Shown piece by piece: positions 2,594-13,188 of a stretch of 14,493 bases of DNA. Within the stretch, counting starts at the first letter, position 1. Each line of letters opens with the position of its first letter. A model generated the notes under the pieces. It had not been told where the DNA came from, ran no database searches, and saw only the letters and a list, made by a program, of their open reading frames with translations. This stretch comes from a bacterium (GTDB taxonomy: Bacteria; UBP15; UBA6099; JAJRTR01), in NCBI GenBank assembly GCA_024278215.1, contig JAJRTR010000094.1, positions 1-14,493 on the forward strand, given 5' to 3'. The translations under genes and the position numbers were made by a program.

Positions 2594-3784
2594 CTACTTC
2601 AACTTCACCGTTGCAAGCGCCTGTTCGAGATCGGCGATAATATCGTCCGCGTCCTCGACTCCTACAGCCAGTCTGCAAAGCGTGTCCCTTACGCCAAGCG
2701 CGTAGCGCTGTTTCCGCGTCATATCATAATATGTGATGGTCGCCGGGTGGCTGATCAGGCTTTCCGTACCGCCGAGACTCGGCCCCATCAGTATGAGCTT
2801 CAGGTTGCGCAGGAATGTTTGTGTGTTCCTTAAATTACCCTTGAGCTCGAACGCGAAGCAGCCGCTGAGGCCGTCCATCTGCTCTTTTGCGATCTTGTAG
2901 CTCGGGTGATCCGGAAGTCCCGGATGCCATACTTTGTCGATTTTCGGATGTTTTACAAGCCATTTCGCGATCTTTAGAGCGCTGTCGTTCTGGTGTCTGA
3001 TCCGCAGGGCGAAGGTTTTTAGTCCACGGATTATGAGATAAGCGGCGTGCGGGTCGATATTGCCGCCGAGAGTTTTCAGGAAAGCTTTTATTTTAGCGAT
3101 ATTTTCCGCCGAACCAAGCACCACTCCGCCGAGCACGTCGTTGTGCCCTGCGAGATATTTTGTCGCGCTGTGAATTACGAGGTCGACGCCAAATTCGAGC
3201 GGCCTCTGGTTATACGGAGTCGCGAACGTGCTGTCGATTATCACGGGGATACCGGCTTTCTTCGCGGCTTTAACAAGCTTTTTCAGATCGACGACGAACA
3301 TGTAAGGGTTGGTAGGCGATTCGGTGAATATCAGCGCTGTCTCGGGGCGTATCGCCGCCGTTATCTCGTCGGCGGTCGGCGCGACCATCGTGCTTTCGAT
3401 ACCAAAACGCTTGAGGTCGTCCTTGATGAATTGCAGTGTTTTTTTGTAAACATCGCTCGTAAAAACGACATGATCGCCGGTCTTGAGGAAGCACAGGAGC
3501 GTGGTCGTGATGGCGTTCATGCCCGACGCGAAAAGCAGCGCGGCTTCCGCGCCGTCGAGTGCCGCGAGTTTCTTTTCGGCAACATCGACCGTCGGGTTGC
3601 CGTACCTGAGATATTCGTACCTGTATTTTTTTCCGCTCGTGTAATCTTTTATATCCTTCGCGTCGTGGAAAACATAAGTCGATGTCTGCACGATCGGGGT
3701 TGTCACACTGTCGGCATATTTCTTTCGCGCTTCGCCCGCGTGAACAGCCAGTGTCGAAAATCCGGGTTTCTTATTTTTTTTCAT
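2594..3784 (-). CDS. metB: Cystathionine gamma-synthase-type PLP enzyme
   Basis: A protein of 396 residues, full length for the Cys/Met metabolism PLP family (fold type I). It makes cystathionine from an activated homoserine and cysteine, or acts as a related lyase or sulfhydrylase. Visible hallmarks are RYGNPT (60-65, phosphate and substrate binding), ASGMNA (86-91), the PLP-ring aspartate in DSTFATP (D184), and the Schiff-base lysine in SATKYLAGHNDVLGG (K209). GTESLISHP and the terminal RLAVGVEDADDIIADLEQAL complete the pattern. The AGHNDVLGG segment is of the gamma-synthase kind, but synthase, gamma-lyase and O-acylhomoserine sulfhydrylase cannot be separated by eye, so the symbol is tentative. 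The ribosome site AGGCGG lies 7 bases before the ATG. The gene is divergent from the SepCysS unit across a 219-base gap, which places two sulfur amino-acid PLP enzymes back to back. Confidence 0.9.
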   Translation of the reverse strand: MKKNKKPGFSTLAVHAGEARKKYADSVTTPIVQTSTYVFHDAKDIKDYTSGKKYRYEYLRYGNPTVDVAEKKLAALDGAEAALLFASGMNAITTTLLCFLKTGDHVVFTSDVYKKTLQFIKDDLKRFGIESTMVAPTADEITAAIRPETALIFTESPTNPYMFVVDLKKLVKAAKKAGIPVIIDSTFATPYNQRPLEFGVDLVIHSATKYLAGHNDVLGGVVLGSAENIAKIKAFLKTLGGNIDPHAAYLIIRGLKTFALRIRHQNDSALKIAKWLVKHPKIDKVWHPGLPDHPSYKIAKEQMDGLSGCFAFELKGNLRNTQTFLRNLKLILMGPSLGGTESLISHPATITYYDMTRKQRYALGVRDTLCRLAVGVEDADDIIADLEQALATVKLK

Positions 3785-3847: not shown

Positions 3848-3965
3848 ATGCCAGTGTTCCATATATAACGAAATTACTCAAGTATACAGGACAACTAAAT
3901 TAAGTGTAACTTACGGGCTTCCAAAATTCAATTGGCTGCAATAGCACGACACCGGCTGAATCTGT

Positions 3966-3974
3966 TGTTATAAT
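3966..3974 (+). promoter_or_regulatory. Extended -10 promoter for the SepCysS unit
   Basis: TGTTATAAT is a perfect extended -10 (TG-n-TATAAT). Transcription would start near 3981, giving a leader of about 22 bases before the ATG at 4004 that contains AGGGAAGG. No -35 is evident at the normal distance, as is common for extended -10 promoters. The short leader leaves no room for a T-box or riboswitch. Confidence 0.55.
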
Positions 3975-4003: not shown

Positions 4004-4201
4004 ATGGACGGAAATATCAAGAACAGGAACAACAGGCGGGTCGAGCTTACTTTCAGCGTGCTCGACGCAATGGAAGAGTTGCGGGATGTGTGGCGAAGCA
4101 CGGCACCGCTCATGGAACTGGACGCCGCGGCGCTGGCGAAAGTGGAGAAGCAGATCGGAAAAGCCCGCAAGGCGCTTGACGGATTGGAGAAAACGCTTTG
4201 A
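4004..4201 (+). CDS. 65-residue helical protein coupled to SepCysS
   Basis: A small protein with a strong ribosome site (AGGGAAGG at 3991-3998, 5 bases before ATG) placed directly after an extended -10 promoter, so translation is well supported. Residues ~12-36 and ~40-65 look like two amphipathic helices rich in Leu, Ala, Glu and Lys (LDAMEELRDVW and VEKQIGKARKALDGLEKTL), suggesting a helical hairpin or coiled coil. There are no Cys residues and no signal or membrane segment. Its stop codon overlaps the TTG start of SepCysS (TTGA), and the SepCysS ribosome site lies inside its last codons, so the two are translationally coupled. I recognise no family. In methanogens a helical adaptor (SepCysE) joins SepRS to SepCysS. 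A similar scaffold role, or a split-off N-terminal extension of SepCysS, is possible here, but this is inference from position and helical character only. Confidence 0.75.
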   Translation: MDGNIKNRNNRRVELTFSVLDAMEELRDVWRSTAPLMELDAAALAKVEKQIGKARKALDGLEKTL

Positions 4202-5316
4202 TTCAGGACAGGTACAGGGAAGAGCTAACGATAAATCTGAACCCGTTGCAGTCGGCGGGCAGGACAAACGCCGAAGTGCGCAAGGCAGTTATGCGCTATG
4301 TCGACGGCTACTCGGTGTGCGATGCCTGCAACGGTGTGCTGCACGCCATCGAGAAGCCGGATATATGTAATCTTGTCAAAGATTTATGCGAATTTCTGAA
4401 CGTCGACGACGCGAAAACGACCGCCGGCGCGCGTGAGGCGAAGTTCGCCGTGATGCACTCCGAGTGCAAGCCCGGCGACACGATAGTTGTCGACTCGAAC
4501 GCCCACTATACAACATTCGTCGCCGCGGCGAGAGCAAAATTGCCGGTCGTGGAAGTGCCGGCGACAGAGGCTCCGGAACATTTGATCAAACCCGAAGCTT
4601 ATGCTCAAACTATAGATGAAGTGAAAAAGGAAAACGGGAAACCGCCCGCTCTGGCGCTTCTTACACATGTAGACGGCGAATACGGCAACCTGACCGATGC
4701 CGCGGCCATCGCGACCGTATGCCACGACGCGGGAGTGCCCCTGCTGCTCAATACGGCCTACACGACAGGCCGCATGACGGTGGACGCGCGCGAGCTGGGC
4801 GTGGATTTCGTCGCCTGCTCGTGCCACAAAAGCTGGGGCGCGTGCGGCCCTATCGGTGTGCTGGGTGCTGTGGGCGAGAAAGCCGAACACCTGTTCCGCG
4901 TCCACGAACGTTTCCCTAAAAAAAACACCGAACTGCTCGGCTGCACAGCGCGCGGCTCGAACATTATGAGCCTCATGGCCGCCCTGCCCTACGTGCGCGA
5001 ACGTGTAAAAAAATGGGATGCCGAACTCGCCAATGCGCGCTGGTTCGCTGAAAAAATGGAATCGCTCGGGGGCATAAAACTGCTCGGCGACAATCCGACG
5101 AATCACGATCTGATGCGGTTCGAAACCCCGAAGTTCTTTGAGATAGGACAGAAGAACAGGAAGCGAGGCTACTTTCTGCACAAGGAACTGACAAAACGCG
5201 GCATCTCCGGCCTGAAGCCCGGCCAGACAAAGTGGTTCAAAGTCAGCACTTATGGGCTCTCGAAATCGCAACTTGAATACGTCGCCGACGCCTTCGCCAA
5301 AATCGCTGACATGTGA
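4198..5316 (+). CDS. pscS: O-phosphoseryl-tRNA(Cys):Cys-tRNA synthase (SepCysS)
   Basis: A protein of 372 residues, the usual length. It is a PLP enzyme that converts phosphoserine carried on tRNA-Cys to cysteine using a sulfur donor. Hallmarks in order: INLNPLQSAG, GYSVCDAC (C41, C44), TTAGAREAKFAVMH, DSNAHYTT, ALLTHVDGEYGNL, CHKSWGACGPIG (PLP lysine K211), ELLGCTARG (C249), NPTNHDLMRFETP and KPGQTKWFKVSTYGLS. The three cysteines match the spacing of the persulfide/catalytic cysteines known in archaeal enzymes (39/42/247 in Archaeoglobus, 64/67/272 in Methanocaldococcus): 3 and 205 residues apart. The start is TTG overlapping the upstream TGA, with GGAG (4186-4189) 8 bases ahead; no in-frame ATG lies before residue 32, which is past the conserved N-terminal motif. 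SepCysS is mainly archaeal and rare in bacteria. No SepRS gene is in the window, so how the phosphoseryl-tRNA is made here is unknown. Confidence 0.95.
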   Translation: MIQDRYREELTINLNPLQSAGRTNAEVRKAVMRYVDGYSVCDACNGVLHAIEKPDICNLVKDLCEFLNVDDAKTTAGAREAKFAVMHSECKPGDTIVVDSNAHYTTFVAAARAKLPVVEVPATEAPEHLIKPEAYAQTIDEVKKENGKPPALALLTHVDGEYGNLTDAAAIATVCHDAGVPLLLNTAYTTGRMTVDARELGVDFVACSCHKSWGACGPIGVLGAVGEKAEHLFRVHERFPKKNTELLGCTARGSNIMSLMAALPYVRERVKKWDAELANARWFAEKMESLGGIKLLGDNPTNHDLMRFETPKFFEIGQKNRKRGYFLHKELTKRGISGLKPGQTKWFKVSTYGLSKSQLEYVADAFAKIADM

Positions 5317-6500: not shown

Positions 6501-7022
6501 TTATACCCGATCCACGCGCGCGTCCAGAAAATAGCGGTTATAAATATTTGCAAGCGCGAAAAACGACGCTTCGATAACACTCTCTGAGCCGACTTCGGAG
6601 AAATACAACCGGCCGGTTTTATTCGTTGCGAGTATGAAGACTTCGACTTCCGACGAAGTGCCCGCCCTGTCGGATGTCGTCGCAACCGTATACCTTACCA
6701 GCCTGACATCATTTATAAAAGGATATATCGGTACGAGGAGTTTTCTCAAAGCCTTGTCCAGCGCGTCCACGACACCGTCGCCGCTCGACGACGCATACAG
6801 CGACACAAACTTATCGTCTCCCGGCTGATACTCCGCGTAATATCTCTTTTCGATCCTGCCTTCGGCGTTTTCCGCCGGCACCCTTATCTTTATCGAGGCC
6901 TCGTTCTCTTCCTTCGCCTCCTCCGCGCTCTTGAACGCGGATACGCGATAGCGCTCCATCTTGAAAAAACTGCGTCTGAAATATTTCTTGTCGTGTTTCA
7001 CAAACAACTCCCGCATATCCAT
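6501..7022 (-). CDS. Free-standing citramalate/isopropylmalate synthase regulatory (LeuA dimer) domain
   Basis: A protein of 173 residues that resembles only the C-terminal allosteric domain of citramalate synthase (CimA) or 2-isopropylmalate synthase (LeuA). Residues ~14-60 match the first half (FKMERYRV then a beta strand). Residues ~81-165 match the second: GDGVVDALDKALRKLLVPIYP (81-101), VRLVRYTV, GTSSEVEVFI and VGSESVIEASFFALANIYNR, which mirrors the usual VGVSxNIIEASWQALVDS. This domain binds leucine or isoleucine and mediates feedback inhibition. No catalytic barrel is attached or adjacent; upstream on this strand is only a 129-base divergent gap. It may act in trans on a synthase elsewhere, sense an amino acid for another partner, or be a relic. 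The ATG at 7022 has only a weak ribosome site; a GTG seven codons in has GGGAG 6 bases ahead and is a good alternative start. Cotranscribed with the SDR gene. Confidence 0.75.
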   Translation of the reverse strand: MDMRELFVKHDKKYFRRSFFKMERYRVSAFKSAEEAKEENEASIKIRVPAENAEGRIEKRYYAEYQPGDDKFVSLYASSSGDGVVDALDKALRKLLVPIYPFINDVRLVRYTVATTSDRAGTSSEVEVFILATNKTGRLYFSEVGSESVIEASFFALANIYNRYFLDARVDRV

Positions 7023-7151: not shown

Positions 7152-8162
7152 ATGAAAAAAGTCGTGTCGGTTTCCAGGAGAACGGATGTGCCCGCATTCT
7201 ATGGCGAGTGGTTCATGAACCGCGTGCGTGCGGGTGAGGCGGGCTATGTGAATCCTTACGGCGGCAGGAAATGCGCTGTGAGCCTGCGGCCTGAAGATAC
7301 CGGGTTTTTCGTTTTCTGGTCGAAAAACTTCCGACCCTTCCTGAAATATCTCGACGAACTCGACGACATGGGATTCGCATTTTATTTTCAATTCACGATC
7401 ACCGGCCATCCTGCGCTTTTCGAGGCAGATGTGCCGCCATGGCGCGCGGCGGCGGAGACAGCGCGGGAACTCGCCACACGCTATTCGCCGGAACATGTGA
7501 TATGGCGCTTCGATCCTATTATCTTTTCGTCGATCACACCGCCCGATTATGTTGAAACGGCTTTCGCATCCATCGCCGCGTCGGTGGCGGGCGCCACACG
7601 ACGCTGTTTCATCAGCTATGTAGACTACTACGGCAAAGTGCAGAAGAACTTCGAGTCGCTCGCCGCCGAAACAAATGTTGTGTTCAACGTCGACGCAGGG
7701 CTCGAGGAGAAAATGATCGCGAGATCATCAGATAGCCGCGGCGCTTTCACATTCGATCTGACGAAAGAACAGCAGGTCGATTTCGCGTCGCGACTGGCGG
7801 CTATCGCAAATCAGTATGATATTCAGGTCTACTCGTGTTGCGAAGATTTTCTGACCGAATATGTAACGGCGATCCGAAAGGGACACTGCGTCGACGCCGG
7901 GCTTATCGCTCAACTGACGGACGGTGAAATAGCCGGCCTGAAGCCGCGCCCGACACGCGAGGGATGCGGCTGCTACGAAAGCCGCGACATAGGCGCCTAC
8001 GACACCTGCCCCCACGGCTGCGTCTACTGTTATGCGAATGTGAATAAGAGAATCTCCGCCGAAAAATACGCAGCTACACTTGCCGATTCGCATTCGTTCG
8101 CGCTCGGCAGGAGCAGCCCGAGAAATGAATTCCCGGTTCTGAATGATCACCGGGACGTTTGA
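7152..8162 (+). CDS. DUF1848 family protein with C-terminal Fe-S motif
   Basis: A protein of 336 residues matching DUF1848 over its full length: SRRTDVPAFY near the N-terminus (8-17), NPYGGR, VFWSKN (54-59), FQFTITG (80-85), IWRFDPI (117-123), YSCCEDF, and a C-terminal cysteine cluster GCGCYESRDIGAYDTC followed by PHGCVYCYAN. In that cluster C286-x3-C290-x2-C293 has the spacing of a radical SAM [4Fe-4S] motif but sits at the C-terminus, as noted for this family; C272 and C274 may add ligands. The function of DUF1848 is unknown to me; redox or radical chemistry is an inference. The ATG lies 11 bases after a TATAAT box and lacks a ribosome site, so it may be translated from a leaderless message. 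It reads into the 2-oxoacid oxidoreductase genes, 59 bases upstream of the gamma subunit, and may share their transcript. Confidence 0.88.
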   Translation: MKKVVSVSRRTDVPAFYGEWFMNRVRAGEAGYVNPYGGRKCAVSLRPEDTGFFVFWSKNFRPFLKYLDELDDMGFAFYFQFTITGHPALFEADVPPWRAAAETARELATRYSPEHVIWRFDPIIFSSITPPDYVETAFASIAASVAGATRRCFISYVDYYGKVQKNFESLAAETNVVFNVDAGLEEKMIARSSDSRGAFTFDLTKEQQVDFASRLAAIANQYDIQVYSCCEDFLTEYVTAIRKGHCVDAGLIAQLTDGEIAGLKPRPTREGCGCYESRDIGAYDTCPHGCVYCYANVNKRISAEKYAATLADSHSFALGRSSPRNEFPVLNDHRDV

Positions 8163-8221
8163 AAAAGAGAGAGCCCCGAAGTACAATGTCAGCACCTCGC
8201 GGAGGGGCGGAAACAGTTGAT

Positions 8222-8794
8222 ATGATAGAAATAAGATTTCACGGCAGGGGCGGCCAGGGTGCCGTTGTAGCGTCACGTGTGCTGGCGGAGGCCGCTTTCC
8301 TCGAGGGCCGCCATGTGCAATCGTTTCCCGCTTTCGGGCTCGAACGCAGGGGCGCGCCGGTGATGGCTTTTACACGTATTCAGGATTCGCCGATATACAA
8401 CCATAGCCAGATATATGCACCGGACCTCGTTGTTGTGCTCGACGCTTCACTCATGGATATTGTCGATGTGACGGCGGGTCTGAAAAAGGACGGCCTGGTG
8501 CTCGTGAACTCGGCGACCGGCCCCGCCGACATACCGGGGCTTGTGAGTCTCGCCGCTGCTGCTGTCAACGCAGGCGAAATAGCGACGGCCAACGGGCTCG
8601 GCAGCCGCACACATCCCATTGTCAATACTTCCATACTCGGCGCTCTGGCAAGGGCTTCCGGCTATGTGAAACTGGAAAGTGTTGTCGGCGCGATCGAGAA
8701 AATCATCTCCATACGACCCGGGGCGAATGTGAAGGCGTGCCGCGAGGCTTACGAAGCGGTGCGGATGAAAGAAGCATCGCTGAATACTATGTAG
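8222..8794 (+). CDS. porG: 2-oxoacid:ferredoxin oxidoreductase, gamma subunit
   Basis: A protein of 190 residues, typical of the gamma subunit or domain of pyruvate/2-oxoisovalerate:ferredoxin oxidoreductases. It opens with the family signature [22 protein letters not shown] (GRGGQG at 8-13), continues with [15 protein letters not shown] (about 40-54), [11 protein letters not shown], and [21 protein letters not shown]. The subunit supports CoA binding and assembly with alpha and beta. I chose the ATG at 8222 because the conserved sequence begins right there; upstream in-frame starts at 8159 (TTG) and 8186 (ATG) would add unconserved residues. A GGAGGGGCGG stretch (8201-8210) lies 11-14 bases ahead, rather far for a ribosome site. 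It is the first gene of a gamma, delta-like, alpha, beta operon. The substrate may be pyruvate or another 2-oxoacid; the por name is by analogy. Confidence 0.93.
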
Positions 8795-8836
8795 ATCGCG
8801 TCGGACTGAAACGAAAAAACAGAGGAACGAATAAAA

Positions 8837-10552
8837 TTGACCGAGAAGAAAACACAGGAACCTCTCATCTACACGACACAGGATACGCTCGGCAACAAAA
8901 CCGGTTCATGGCGGTACATGAGGCCGGTTTTCGAGACGAAAGCTGCGCCGTGCGCTGCGATATGCCCGGCGGGCAACCCGATTGTGTCTTTTATCACCTT
9001 CGCGAAGGAAGGCGATTTCGACTCCGCGCTCAGGATGATAAAACAGGAGAATCCACTGCCGTCCGTCTGTGGACGTGTGTGCCCGCATCCCTGCACCTCG
9101 GCGTGCAACCGGTATACGTACGATGGGTCAGTCGCGATAAATGAAATAGAAAGATTTTGCGGCGATTTCGCGGAACAGGCCGGTCCGGAAATACCCGAAC
9201 GCGCAGGCGCGACAGGAAAGAAAATAGCTGTGGTCGGCGCGGGACCTGCCGGGCTCAGTTGCGCGTATCAGGCTGCGCTGATGGGCCACGAAGTCACGAT
9301 CCTGGAGGCGTCCAACCGCGCCGGCGGACTGCTCACACAGGCTATCCCCGCATACCGGCTGCCTGCCGGGGTGGTGCGCCGCGATTTGTGTTTCATCGAC
9401 ATTCTTAACATTATATTACTTACAGGGAAAACCATCACAGCATCCGATATTGAAAAAATGGCGGCGGATTACGACGCTGTCGCTGTCGCCTGCGGTGCGC
9501 ATAAAAGCTATCGTCTCGGTATCGAAGGCGAGGAGCTTGCGGGTGTCGTGCCGGGCCTCGAATTCCTGCGAAAAATGAGCGGGCGGGCCGCGCCCGCGCC
9601 GGGCGCGAAAACGGTAGTGATCGGCGGCGGCAACACGGCGATGGACGCCGCGCGAGCGGCTTTGCGGCTCGGCGCGGAGGTCACTGTTCTGTATCGCCGC
9701 ACACGCGCGGAGATGCCGGCGTTCCCCGGTGAGATATTGGAAGCGGAGGAGGAAGGCATCGAATTCCGGTTCCTTTCCGCGCCGGTAAAGATCGAGACTT
9801 CCGGCAAAACAAAAAAGGTAATTTGCCGGGAAATGGAACTCGGCTCTGACGACGATTCCGGCAGGCCGCGCCCCGTGCCGGTCGAAGGCAGTGAGTTCGA
9901 GTTGGATGCAGATACGGTGATAACGGCGATCGGTGAAACGGTAGCGCTCGACGCGCCGTTTTTCAGCCCGAATGAAAACCGGAGACAAATATCGAACGCG
10001 TGGGGCCGCACGACGAATGACAGAATTTTTATTTGCGGCGACGCCGGCCCGAACGACAGGACCGTAGCGCACGCAGTCGGCTCGGGGAAAAGGGCGGCGA
10101 TAGCGATTGACGCTCAATTGAGCGGAAAAGATTTCGAGGCGGTAAAGCAGCGAATCACGTTGGGCGGCGGCGCGGTGTCGGCTGCGATTTATCGCAGCGG
10201 TGCGGAGGCTCCCGCGAAAGTGGTTGCTCCGCAGGCCGTCAATTTCGCTTACTTCATGAGAACAGCCCGGCTCGAAGCTGCCACGACCGCGCCGGACGAG
10301 AGAATTAAAGGGTTCGGCGAGATAGGCGCTACCGCCGCCGAAGATGCCGTGCGTGCTGAAGCGGCGCGTTGTTTCACTTGCGGCGTGTGCACTGAATGTG
10401 GCAACTGTTTCATGTTCTGCCCGGACATGTCGATCATCACAGAACCGCGCAACGGTGTGCCCGCCACGGACACCGACTACTGCAAGGGCTGCGGGATATG
10501 CGCGCGCGAGTGCCCGCGCGGGATAATAGAAATGGAAGAGGAAAACAAATGA
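8837..10552 (+). CDS. GltD-like FAD/NAD(P) oxidoreductase fused to 2[4Fe-4S] ferredoxin (delta-like subunit)
   Basis: A 571-residue modular redox protein. Residues 1-115 form a GltD-type Fe-S domain (C39, C43, C78, C82, C86, C90; preceded by the family segment GSWRYMRPVF). Residues 128-470 form the flavoprotein part with FAD-binding VVGAGPAGL (132-140) and NAD(P)-binding VIGGGNTAMDAAR (261-273). Residues 512-571 are a bacterial 2[4Fe-4S] ferredoxin with C518, C521, C524, C528 and C549, C552, C555, C559, plus extra C512 and C515. Start is TTG with AGAGGA about 10 bases ahead; the conserved residues before the first ATG (residue 28) support the longer start. It occupies the place of the small PorD ferredoxin subunit and overlaps the alpha gene by ATGA. 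It probably carries electrons from the TPP enzyme through its clusters to FAD and NAD(P)+, or back. Direction and cofactor preference are not visible. Confidence 0.9.
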   Translation: MTEKKTQEPLIYTTQDTLGNKTGSWRYMRPVFETKAAPCAAICPAGNPIVSFITFAKEGDFDSALRMIKQENPLPSVCGRVCPHPCTSACNRYTYDGSVAINEIERFCGDFAEQAGPEIPERAGATGKKIAVVGAGPAGLSCAYQAALMGHEVTILEASNRAGGLLTQAIPAYRLPAGVVRRDLCFIDILNIILLTGKTITASDIEKMAADYDAVAVACGAHKSYRLGIEGEELAGVVPGLEFLRKMSGRAAPAPGAKTVVIGGGNTAMDAARAALRLGAEVTVLYRRTRAEMPAFPGEILEAEEEGIEFRFLSAPVKIETSGKTKKVICREMELGSDDDSGRPRPVPVEGSEFELDADTVITAIGETVALDAPFFSPNENRRQISNAWGRTTNDRIFICGDAGPNDRTVAHAVGSGKRAAIAIDAQLSGKDFEAVKQRITLGGGAVSAAIYRSGAEAPAKVVAPQAVNFAYFMRTARLEAATTAPDERIKGFGEIGATAAEDAVRAEAARCFTCGVCTECGNCFMFCPDMSIITEPRNGVPATDTDYCKGCGICARECPRGIIEMEEENK

Positions 10553-11697
10553 AGCAGGTGCTGTTAGGCAACTTCGCGGTTGCGAGAGCCGTCGCGCTGG
10601 CCCGTGTGGATGTGATCTCGGCCTACCCGATCACTCCCCAGACGCTTATCGTCGAGGAACTTTCGGAAATGTGTGCGCGGGGCGATTGCGGGGCGAAGTT
10701 TATAAAAGTGGAATCCGAGCATTCGGCGCTGGCCTGTTGTATGGGTGCGTCCGCGGCGGGCGCACGCACATTCACCGCCACTTCGTCGCACGGACTGCTG
10801 CTGATGCACGAGATGATACACTGGTCGGCAGGCGCGCGCACTCCTATCGTCATGGTGAATGTAAACCGCGCCATCGCACCGCCCTGGAACCTGTGGTCGG
10901 AACAGACCGACAGCCTTTCGCAGCGCGACACGGGCTGGATTCAACTATATTGCGAGAACAACCAGGAAGTGCTTGACACAACTCTCCATGCCTACAGAAT
11001 CGCCGAACAACTGCGGGTGCCCGTGATGCTTGTAATGGACGCTTTCATCCTTTCGCACACATCCGAGGTCGTCGATGTACCGGACATCGCTCAGGTCGAC
11101 AGGTTCCTGCCGCCGTACAATCCGGAAGTGAAGCTGGACCCGGCTGATCCGCATTCTTTCGGCAGCATCACAGGCGGCGCGGAGTACCAGGAACTGAAAC
11201 GGATACGCCACGAAGCGATACTTAGGGCACGGGATGTTGCACTTGAAGTCGACAGTGAGTTCGATGCGATATTCGGACGAAAATACGGGATTGTGCAACC
11301 GTACAGATGCGACGACGCGGAACTGATCCTGCTGACATCCGGCACGACCGCCGGAACAGCACGCATCGCCGTGGATGCGCTGCGCGAGGAGGGAGTCGCT
11401 GCGGGCACACTCAAGGTGCGGCTCTTCAGACCGTTCCCGGCGCATGCGATAGCCGAGGGGGTGGGCGACGCGCCGAAGGTGGCAGTGATAGACAGGAATG
11501 TGTCGCTCGGCGCTGGTGGAATATTCGCGCAGGAACTGAAGGCGGCGTTTTATGATATGGACCGGAGACCGGAGATTATCGGCATAGTGAGCGGGCTGGG
11601 CGGCGGCGACTTCACGCCGGAAGCAATAGCGAGGATTGCACACAATGCCGCAAGCGCAAAAGGCCGGCGCGGCGAAGCGGTATGGGAGGCTCTGTGA
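10549..11697 (+). CDS. porA: 2-oxoacid:ferredoxin oxidoreductase, alpha subunit
   Basis: A protein of 382 residues, the normal size. It starts with KQVLLGNFAVARA, then SAYPITPQT (24-32), the pyrimidine-domain signature with the threonine that contacts the substrate, then KVESEHSALACCMGASAAGARTF, HGLLLMHEMIHWSAGARTPIVM and the domain-II region around LILLTSGTTAGTARIAVDALREEG with VRLFRPFP. It pairs with beta to bind thiamine diphosphate and decarboxylate the 2-oxoacid. The YPITPQT form and the WSEQTDSLSQRDTGWIQ segment suit pyruvate or branched-chain types better than the 2-oxoglutarate type, though this is not decisive. The ATG at 10549 overlaps the stop of the previous gene (ATGA) and has GAGGAAA (10539-10545) in front. 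Its own stop overlaps the beta start by one base, so the operon is tightly coupled. Confidence 0.93.
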   Translation: MKQVLLGNFAVARAVALARVDVISAYPITPQTLIVEELSEMCARGDCGAKFIKVESEHSALACCMGASAAGARTFTATSSHGLLLMHEMIHWSAGARTPIVMVNVNRAIAPPWNLWSEQTDSLSQRDTGWIQLYCENNQEVLDTTLHAYRIAEQLRVPVMLVMDAFILSHTSEVVDVPDIAQVDRFLPPYNPEVKLDPADPHSFGSITGGAEYQELKRIRHEAILRARDVALEVDSEFDAIFGRKYGIVQPYRCDDAELILLTSGTTAGTARIAVDALREEGVAAGTLKVRLFRPFPAHAIAEGVGDAPKVAVIDRNVSLGAGGIFAQELKAAFYDMDRRPEIIGIVSGLGGGDFTPEAIARIAHNAASAKGRRGEAVWEAL

Positions 11698-12590
11698 TGA
11701 ATGTGACTGTCGAACAGGAATTCGTTTGCCGGGGCCATGTGGCGTGTCCGGGCTGCGGCGCGGTGCTCGCGATGCGGTATGTGCTCGATGTGCTCGGTAA
11801 AAAAACGATAGTCGTGCTGCCCGCGTGTTGCTGGTCGGTGATAAACAACCGCTATCCGACAGCAGCTGTGAAGGTGCCGCTTTTTCACACGGCGTTCGAG
11901 ACGGCGGCATGTGTCGCCACGGGAGTGCGCGCCGCGCTCGATATGAAAGGCGACAACGATACGCATGTGCTGGCATGGGCGGGCGACGGCGGAACGTTTG
12001 ATATCGGACTCCAGGCGCTCTCGGGCGCCGCGGAGCGTAACGACGACATCATCTACGTCTGCTACGACAACGAAGCGTATATGAATACGGGTATTCAGCG
12101 CAGTTCATCCACTCCGTTCGGCGCATGGACGACGACCACGCCCGCAAAAACGTTTAAGACGAAACAGAAAAAGAATATCATGGATATAATGGCCGCCCAC
12201 CGCATCCCCTACGCGGCTACCGCCACTATCGCATATCCCGAGGACCTGATGAACAAAGTCCGATACGCGGCAGGCATTCGCGGCACACGGTTTCTCCATA
12301 TATTCTGTCCGTGCCCGACCGGCTGGAAGACCGCGCCCGACATCACTGTCGAGCTTTCACGCAACGCGGTGCGCGCGCGCGCGTTTCCTCTATATGAAGT
12401 CTTCGACGGCACGAGATACCGGCTCACACACGAACCGGCCCAGGAAGACAGGATGCCGATTGCGGAATACATAAAACCGCAAAGGCGTTTTGCCCATTTG
12501 ACAGAGGCGGAAATCCAGGTAATGCAGGATCACGCGGACGAGGAATGGGGCCGCCTGATGAAAGTGACCGAAACGTGGCCGGCGGGTTAA
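11697..12590 (+). CDS. porB: 2-oxoacid:ferredoxin oxidoreductase, beta subunit
   Basis: A protein of 297 residues, typical for PorB. It binds thiamine diphosphate and one [4Fe-4S] cluster. Cluster ligands are visible as CPGCG (C17, C20), the Cys before Trp in LPACCWSV (C45) and one Cys in FCPCPTGW (C204 or C206). The TPP/Mg motif runs from AGDGG (95-99) to NEAYMNTGIQRS (125-136), followed by TPFGAWTTTTP as usual. I chose the ATG at 11697, which shares a base with the stop of alpha (TGATG) and has GGGAGG 7 bases upstream; the ATG at 11682 is five codons earlier and overlaps that ribosome site. Last gene of the operon. Only 74 bases separate it from the convergent toxin gene, with a weak 5-bp hairpin (TACTC/GAGTA near 12639-12654) and no clear terminator. 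Confidence 0.94.
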   Translation: MNVTVEQEFVCRGHVACPGCGAVLAMRYVLDVLGKKTIVVLPACCWSVINNRYPTAAVKVPLFHTAFETAACVATGVRAALDMKGDNDTHVLAWAGDGGTFDIGLQALSGAAERNDDIIYVCYDNEAYMNTGIQRSSSTPFGAWTTTTPAKTFKTKQKKNIMDIMAAHRIPYAATATIAYPEDLMNKVRYAAGIRGTRFLHIFCPCPTGWKTAPDITVELSRNAVRARAFPLYEVFDGTRYRLTHEPAQEDRMPIAEYIKPQRRFAHLTEAEIQVMQDHADEEWGRLMKVTETWPAG

Positions 12591-12664: not shown

Positions 12665-13000
12665 CTAATCAGTTTGTAGTATATCAACAATCTTCCGGAT
12701 AATTTCATCGAACTTGTTTTGTCTGAGGTGCCCGATTCGATAAAGAATGATATTCCGGTCGGCGGTAAAAATACGATTCGGTCTCGTGTTACTGTTTTGT
12801 TTTAGAGCGCCATTGTCGAAATCGGCATCTTCAATTGAGACAGCGAATCTGTCACTGATATTTCTGCTGGTTATCTGGCAGAGGATATAATCGTCTCCAT
12901 CAAGATCAGCGATTATAAGCGCCGGACGTCTCTTTGCCTGAGTCAAGTCGGAGAAGGGGAAAGGAACAACAACAACATCGCCTCTTATAAATTTTGCCAA
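12665..13000 (-). CDS. MazF/PemK-type mRNA interferase toxin
   Basis: A protein of 111 residues, the usual length for the MazF/PemK/Kid fold. The N-terminus FIRGDVVVVPFPFSDLTQAKRRPALII is the family signature (GDVxxxxFPFSD and the RPALII strand), followed by DDYILCQITS with the Thr-Ser of the active site. These toxins cut RNA. Start is TTG (12998-13000). Its ribosome site is the GAGGAGGAG run that encodes three Glu near the end of the antitoxin gene, 5 bases upstream, and the two genes overlap by 16 bases. The C-terminal helix (KFDEIIRKIVDILQ) is intact, so the toxin looks functional. No close relative can be named by eye. Confidence 0.9.
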   Translation of the reverse strand: MAKFIRGDVVVVPFPFSDLTQAKRRPALIIADLDGDDYILCQITSRNISDRFAVSIEDADFDNGALKQNSNTRPNRIFTADRNIILYRIGHLRQNKFDEIIRKIVDILQTD

Positions 13001-13179
13001 GCCTGCTCCTCCTCGGGGCTCAGCCAGTCTTTTCCGAGTGACGATTCACTTGCAATCGCGGTTCCTGATTTTTCCATGGAATTATCCGCCCTTAAGAAAC
13101 GGATGAACTCCAGCACTTTTTCGACATGTGATTCCGGAAGCCGATCAATTTCCTTAATGATTGAATCCTTTCCAGACAT
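12985..13179 (-). CDS. Antitoxin partner of the MazF-type toxin
   Basis: A small acidic protein of 64 residues directly upstream of, and overlapping, the toxin gene. The N-terminal half (IKEIDRLPESHVEKVLEFIRFLR) matches the DUF2281/antitoxin-like pattern in which a short helix after LPE is followed by a Val/Leu-rich helix. The C-terminal half (SSLGKDWLSPEEEQAWQNL) is of the kind that wraps the toxin. I chose ATG at 13179; a GTG three codons earlier is possible, but GAGGG would then lie only 2 bases ahead, against 11 for the ATG. As in other type II pairs it probably also represses the operon. A TCAATTGA palindrome at 13202-13209 could be an operator, which is speculative. Confidence 0.8.
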   Translation of the reverse strand: MSGKDSIIKEIDRLPESHVEKVLEFIRFLRADNSMEKSGTAIASESSLGKDWLSPEEEQAWQNL

Positions 13180-13188
13180 TGCTTTCAC

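Follow-up and report, generated by a model that had tools for sequence, protein, structure and literature searches.

A probable cysteine operon in a bacterial genome

In this article, I discuss a predicted two-gene operon, SepCysSn-SepCysS, which occupies positions 4004-5316 of a 14,493-nt stretch of DNA from an uncultured bacterium (contig JAJRTR010000094.1 of assembly GCA_024278215.1), and I ask what it does in a genome that also has the genes for making cysteine in the ordinary way. This whole stretch is called the window, and its numbering is used for all coordinates given without a contig name. The candidate gene, 4198-5316(+), had been read in an earlier note, made from the letters of the window alone, as an archaeal-type SepCysS (Sep-tRNA:Cys-tRNA synthase, where Sep is O-phosphoserine) in a bacterial setting. 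The genome that carries it is 4.5 Mb in 207 contigs, 95.2% complete with a contamination of 1.26%, and the sample for its order comprises seven genomes. The features at the locus are as follows.

2594..3784, - strand: pyridoxal phosphate (PLP) enzyme of the cystathionine gamma-synthase / methionine gamma-lyase family (CGS); PF01053, 462 bits; locus conserved in the order
3946..3974, + strand: sigma-70-like promoter with an extended -10 (TGnTATAAT); consensus scan, 10/12, consensus match only
4004..4201, + strand: SepCysSn, an open reading frame (ORF) of 65 aa; upstream conservation, hidden Markov model (HMM) and profile match to SepCysE
4198..5316, + strand: SepCysS, 372 aa; TTG start, overlapping the SepCysSn stop; clade I-like

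The identity of the larger gene is clear, since its protein scores 516.9 bits (E 2.9e-155) in a profile search against TIGR02539, the equivalog model for SepCysS, exceeding the cut-off of 365.25 bits by 150 bits, and its catalytic residues are all kept; the earlier reading of a SepCysS in a bacterial genome is thus borne out. Models for cysteine desulfurases give the same protein 43.2 bits at best, and the closest structures found with phmmer are the SepCysS of Archaeoglobus fulgidus (2e7i, E 7.6e-111) and that of Methanocaldococcus jannaschii (3wkr, E 3.3e-110), the solved homologues sharing about 50% identity with it. In an alignment of the window protein with these two archaeal enzymes, three relatives and one paralogue, C41, C44, H210, K211 and C249 are invariant, and pairwise alignment matches C41, C44, K211 and C249 with positions 39, 42, 209 and 247 of the A. 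fulgidus enzyme, against which the spacing claimed for the three cysteines and the PLP lysine thus holds. The 8-aa insertion used to tell clades II-VII from clade I and the bacterial enzymes (Mukai et al., 2017; PMC5424206) is also absent from the protein.

The 65-aa ORF at 4004-4201 was overlooked in the gene list of the earlier note, and this changes how the expression signals are to be read: the TTG start of SepCysS was recognized correctly, but the extended -10 and the strong Shine-Dalgarno sequence (GGGAAGG) precede the small ORF and not SepCysS itself. The two genes overlap by 4 nt (TTGA), with the TTG at 4198 and the TGA stop at 4199-4201, and the promoter at 3946..3974 presumably drives both. 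Five more genomes of the order have a small gene of this type directly 5' of SepCysS, and an HMM built from these sequences finds matching ORFs at the same place in two other bacterial bins and in several archaea. Searched singly against the Protein Data Bank, SepCysSn had no useful match, and only the profile ties it to SepCysE: with ten bacterial and archaeal members, it matches M. jannaschii SepCysE MJ1481 (3wkr_C) at E 3.4e-5, the next, unrelated match standing at 0.15. Because this profile finds MJ1481 and the gene directly precedes SepCysS, the ORF is assigned as SepCysSn, homologous to the N-terminal domain of SepCysE, which has been described as a standalone protein (Mukai et al., 2017; PMC5424206).

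SepRS and the rest of the cysteine machinery

SepRS, the enzyme for the first step, is encoded once in this genome, on another contig (G000:C22:63221-64678), and scores 440.7 bits against a model with a cut-off of 380.65 bits. The earlier note was therefore right that no SepRS is linked to the window SepCysS, but the gene is not missing from the genome. Its reading frame of 637 aa begins with an archaeal threonyl-tRNA synthetase (ThrRS) editing domain (PF08915, residues 1-137, 127.1 bits), in which CPFGWYK aligns with APFGWYK of M. jannaschii ThrRS, and continues as SepRS proper, where the TLRSHMTS, FRREQ and SAS motifs, which we take to bind phosphoserine and ATP, align with those of M. jannaschii SepRS, the two SepRS sequences being 39% identical where they align. 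Every one of the five bacterial SepRS whose N-terminus is intact (L005, L040, L041, L191 and L192) has the same fusion, and in a sixth (L039) the contig ends inside the editing domain. Within the order, SepRS accompanies SepCysS in four of the six genomes having the latter.

A single tRNA-Cys was detected in the window genome (L066 1468-1541) by a pattern search, which a deviating tRNA-Cys would escape; it has a GCA anticodon, A37 and U73, and adjoins a tRNA-Val as in four relatives. One of the relatives has a second tRNA-Cys just upstream of cysE (L074 1468-1543; G005:C592), which could reflect coincidence or contamination of that bin (4%). CysRS is found in all seven genomes of the order, and CysE-CysK is kept by most of these bacteria; in the window genome, CysK adjoins a serine acetyltransferase of the EpsC/CysE type, and this pair adjoins a cysteine desulfurase-like class V aminotransferase. 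A likely IscU-type scaffold gene, identified by eye, also lies beside CysK/CysE. PSTK was considered as a source of Sep-tRNA and rejected, as none of the seven genomes has a match over the cut-off and there is one weak match below it.

The genome search that had been proposed for SepRS, CysRS, CysE/CysK and tRNA-Cys thus finds all of them, and because CysRS, CysE-CysK and tRNA-Cys are found beside SepRS-SepCysS, the ordinary and the tRNA-dependent routes to cysteine both appear, by gene content, to be complete in this cell. Of the options offered earlier, tRNA-dependent cysteine synthesis is now the most likely, with SepRS and tRNA-Cys present; the suggestion of another source of phosphoseryl-tRNA or of a different substrate falls away, since SepRS is in the same genome and neither need be invoked.

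Relatives and origin

The nearest SepCysS proteins belong to DeMMO6_30 (73%) and RA.bin91 (62%), then to USCA_metabat.19_sub, USMO_maxbin.112 and ADurb.Bin236 (57%), and all five are among the relatives sampled from the order, as their contig coordinates and sequences match; the window type of SepCysS is held by six of the seven genomes. In a search for further relatives, the matches passed from "same order" straight to "same domain", and among the genomes searched the order thus appears isolated within its phylum. A scan of contigs for SepCysS used the best 80 of 163 matches, which lie mostly near clade I. In a tree of 83 SepCysS sequences, built with a quick method, carrying only Shimodaira-Hasegawa-like approximate likelihood ratio (SH-aLRT) support and including no desulfurase, the window protein groups with SepCysS (nearest 46-73% identity), which answers the earlier question of a desulfurase placement as far as this set reaches. 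Its clade (SH-aLRT 95) comprises ten rows, all bacterial, and holds no archaeon; the sister clade (98) consists of six rows from archaea, each of which has a SepCysSn-like ORF 5' of its SepCysS. This topology, from a light method and with the root not inferred, would fit one transfer from SepCysSn-bearing archaea. The SepCysS of a Bipolaricaulota bin (L097 2975-4063) is nearly identical to that of Methanobacteriaceae archaeon 41_258, and that bin is probably contaminated.

In the relatives, the order of genes is CGS, ThrC and then, divergently, SepCysSn and SepCysS, with QueH next in the bins of the f2 genus. The window locus has CGS and SepCysSn-SepCysS without ThrC between them, and its CGS protein has the plant cystathionine gamma-synthase as best structural match (1i41/1qgn, E 2.4e-107). 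The GC content of the locus matches that of neighbouring genes, and GC at third codon positions (GC3) is even around it (0.63-0.73).

Comparison with known systems

The components have precedents. Charging and conversion by SepRS and SepCysS of Chloroflexi and Parcubacteria were demonstrated in vitro, the architecture of ADurb.Bin236 was described with an editing role proposed, and the editing domain and SepCysSn were reported for a few other bacteria (Mukai et al., 2017; PMC5424206); the editing-domain fusion of SepRS was later modelled (Mukai et al., 2022; PMC8762117). The pathway is thus already published from the same order, and the present genome is a further example of a rare system. The ADurb.Bin236 contig was recovered here (L081), and it shares with the window genome the order, the SepCysSn-SepCysS operon, the ThrRS-type editing domain on SepRS and the CGS neighbour, but it belongs to a different family (f1 rather than f2); in the window, no ThrC gene separates CGS from SepCysSn, and the window genome has a further, divergent SepCysS in a sulfur-carrier cluster. 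The Chloroflexi and Parcubacteria systems resemble the present one in their bacterial hosts and in a clade I-like SepCysS that lacks the 8-aa insertion, but SepRS and SepCysS were described there as an operon. Similarly, A. fulgidus SepCysS (2e7i/2e7j) and the M. jannaschii SepCysS-SepCysE complex (3wkr, 3wks) belong to the same enzyme family with the same catalytic cysteines and lysine, and the window SepCysSn matches the N-terminal domain of M. jannaschii SepCysE; that archaeon, however, has a full-length SepCysE where the window genome has a short standalone peptide.

Proposed role and its rivals

I consider it highly probable that the SepCysSn-SepCysS operon serves the second step of the tRNA-dependent route to cysteine in this member of the ADurb.Bin236 lineage. 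What speaks for this in the sequences is the identity of the parts, their catalytic residues, their co-occurrence and the operon structure; activity, editing specificity, docking and the source of sulfur are what I infer from them. SepRS would place O-phosphoserine on the tRNA-Cys with A37 and U73, and its editing domain would probably clear serine from Ser-tRNA-Cys, while SepCysSn probably tethers SepCysS to SepRS or the tRNA, as the N-domain of SepCysE does. SepCysS would then bind Sep-tRNA through the PLP on K211 and eliminate phosphate to give dehydroalanyl-tRNA, to which sulfur from a persulfide on the C41/C44/C249 set would be added to yield Cys-tRNA-Cys. This pathway would run in parallel to CysE-CysK and CysRS and would not be the sole route.

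Several observations weigh against such a role. The genes for SepRS and SepCysS lie apart; three of the seven genomes sampled from the order yielded no SepRS, and since two of these (78% and 88% complete) carry SepCysS, a strict co-occurrence of the two enzymes is unsupported. The tRNA-dependent route looks redundant with CysE-CysK-CysRS, no biochemical data were found for the window SepCysS or for any editing-domain SepRS, and a second SepCysS-like protein, encoded on contig C121 and described below, could be the main enzyme. This last proposal, with the window enzyme left to a minor or other job, draws on the paralogue's CxxC, third cysteine and PLP lysine, on its place among sulfur-transfer genes and on the same lack of linkage between SepRS and the window SepCysS; I nevertheless regard it as unlikely, because the window enzyme scores 517 bits to the paralogue's 339, which is under the TIGR02539 cut-off, because the window enzyme comes with SepCysSn and its type is found in six of the seven genomes (the paralogue's in two), and because the SepRS-bearing relatives have the window-type enzyme alone.

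That the window protein is a PLP enzyme derived from SepCysS and acting on something else, either free phosphoserine or a different aminoacyl-tRNA, might be argued from the sulfur amino acid gene adjoining the locus and from the full free-cysteine route, which makes Cys-tRNA synthesis less necessary, but a score so far beyond the equivalog cut-off, the complete set of catalytic residues, and the presence of SepRS and SepCysSn in a genome with no other apparent source of Sep-tRNA (PSTK not found) make it very improbable. Finally, a family held mainly by archaea, and the precedent of the Bipolaricaulota bin, raise the question of whether the contig is an archaeal contaminant or a chimera and the bacterium itself without SepCysS. 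The check that had been suggested for this was run, and the contig does not look chimeric: the closest relatives, at 57-73% identity, come from bacterial bins of this order, independent assemblies repeat the surroundings of the gene (CGS and SepCysSn, joined in the relatives by ThrC), GC and GC3 are like those of neighbouring genes, the bin has little contamination and no archaeon falls within the bacterial clade. Because of the conserved gene order, even GC3 and low contamination, a chimera is unlikely, and with the tree added I reject contamination as having hardly any chance of being true.

A second SepCysS in a sulfur-carrier cluster

The paralogue on C121 (SepCysS2) scores above the cut-off of NF006810 and keeps all catalytic residues but, unlike the window enzyme, has the 8-aa insertion. 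It lies in the following cluster.

G000:C121 (L175 8149-12964), - strand: CysO-like, ThiF/MoeB-type E1, DUF169, SepCysS2, TusA, ThrC-like

The CysO-like carrier ends in GG and matches Mycobacterium tuberculosis CysO (3dwg, E 8.4e-20). The same cluster recurs in G002:C2 (L178), from a second family of the order, and among 22 further genomes only the SepCysS of G002 is of this type (65% identity), all others being at or below 41%. An archaeal bin, ND3_Bin_21, has ThrC, CysO-like, E1, SepCysSn, SepCysS and a ThiI-like frame in one direction (L134 444-4848), with genes that overlap or lie close together, and this is the only locus with a CysO-like gene among the best 80 of 163 SepCysS matches (flanks up to 6 kb). 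The association of CysO with SepCysS is rare.

It is a tentative idea, and one that I would hold with considerable doubt, that SepCysS2 works with the ubiquitin-like CysO-like carrier, whose thiocarboxylate would supply the sulfur of Cys-tRNA. The GG-ending protein would be activated by the ThiF/MoeB-type E1 and loaded with sulfur via TusA. M. tuberculosis CysM uses a carrier of the CysO kind with free phosphoserine.

Other features of the window

A set of genes for 2-oxoacid:ferredoxin oxidoreductase lies at 8159-12590 (+), with a GltD-like flavoprotein/ferredoxin subunit between gamma and alpha. The tRNA-Arg that ARAGORN calls at 11822-11915 (+) falls within a subunit gene of this set, has no Rfam match and is probably false. 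A gene at 6501-7022 (-) encodes a standalone allosteric (dimerisation) domain of LeuA/citramalate synthase, the catalytic part being absent. At 12665-13188 (-) there is a PemK/MazF-like toxin gene, and the 67-aa gene upstream of it weakly matches DUF2281; the two are a probable toxin-antitoxin pair. The ORFs at 29-796 (255 aa) and 2009-2578 (189 aa) have no match in Pfam or NCBIfam.

Implications

An archaeal two-step route to cysteine is carried here by most of a bacterial order and not by one odd bin, and both accessory features known from ADurb.Bin236, SepCysSn and the editing-domain SepRS, are found in that order. Because these bacteria also keep CysRS and most of them CysE-CysK, with a single tRNA-Cys detected in the window genome, the lineage lends itself to asking why two competing ways of charging one tRNA would be run in the same cell. 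Furthermore, the second SepCysS, with its sulfur-carrier genes, points to a testable candidate for the sulfur donor of SepCysS in the cell; if it is the right one, tRNA-dependent cysteine synthesis would share a kind of carrier with CysM of M. tuberculosis.
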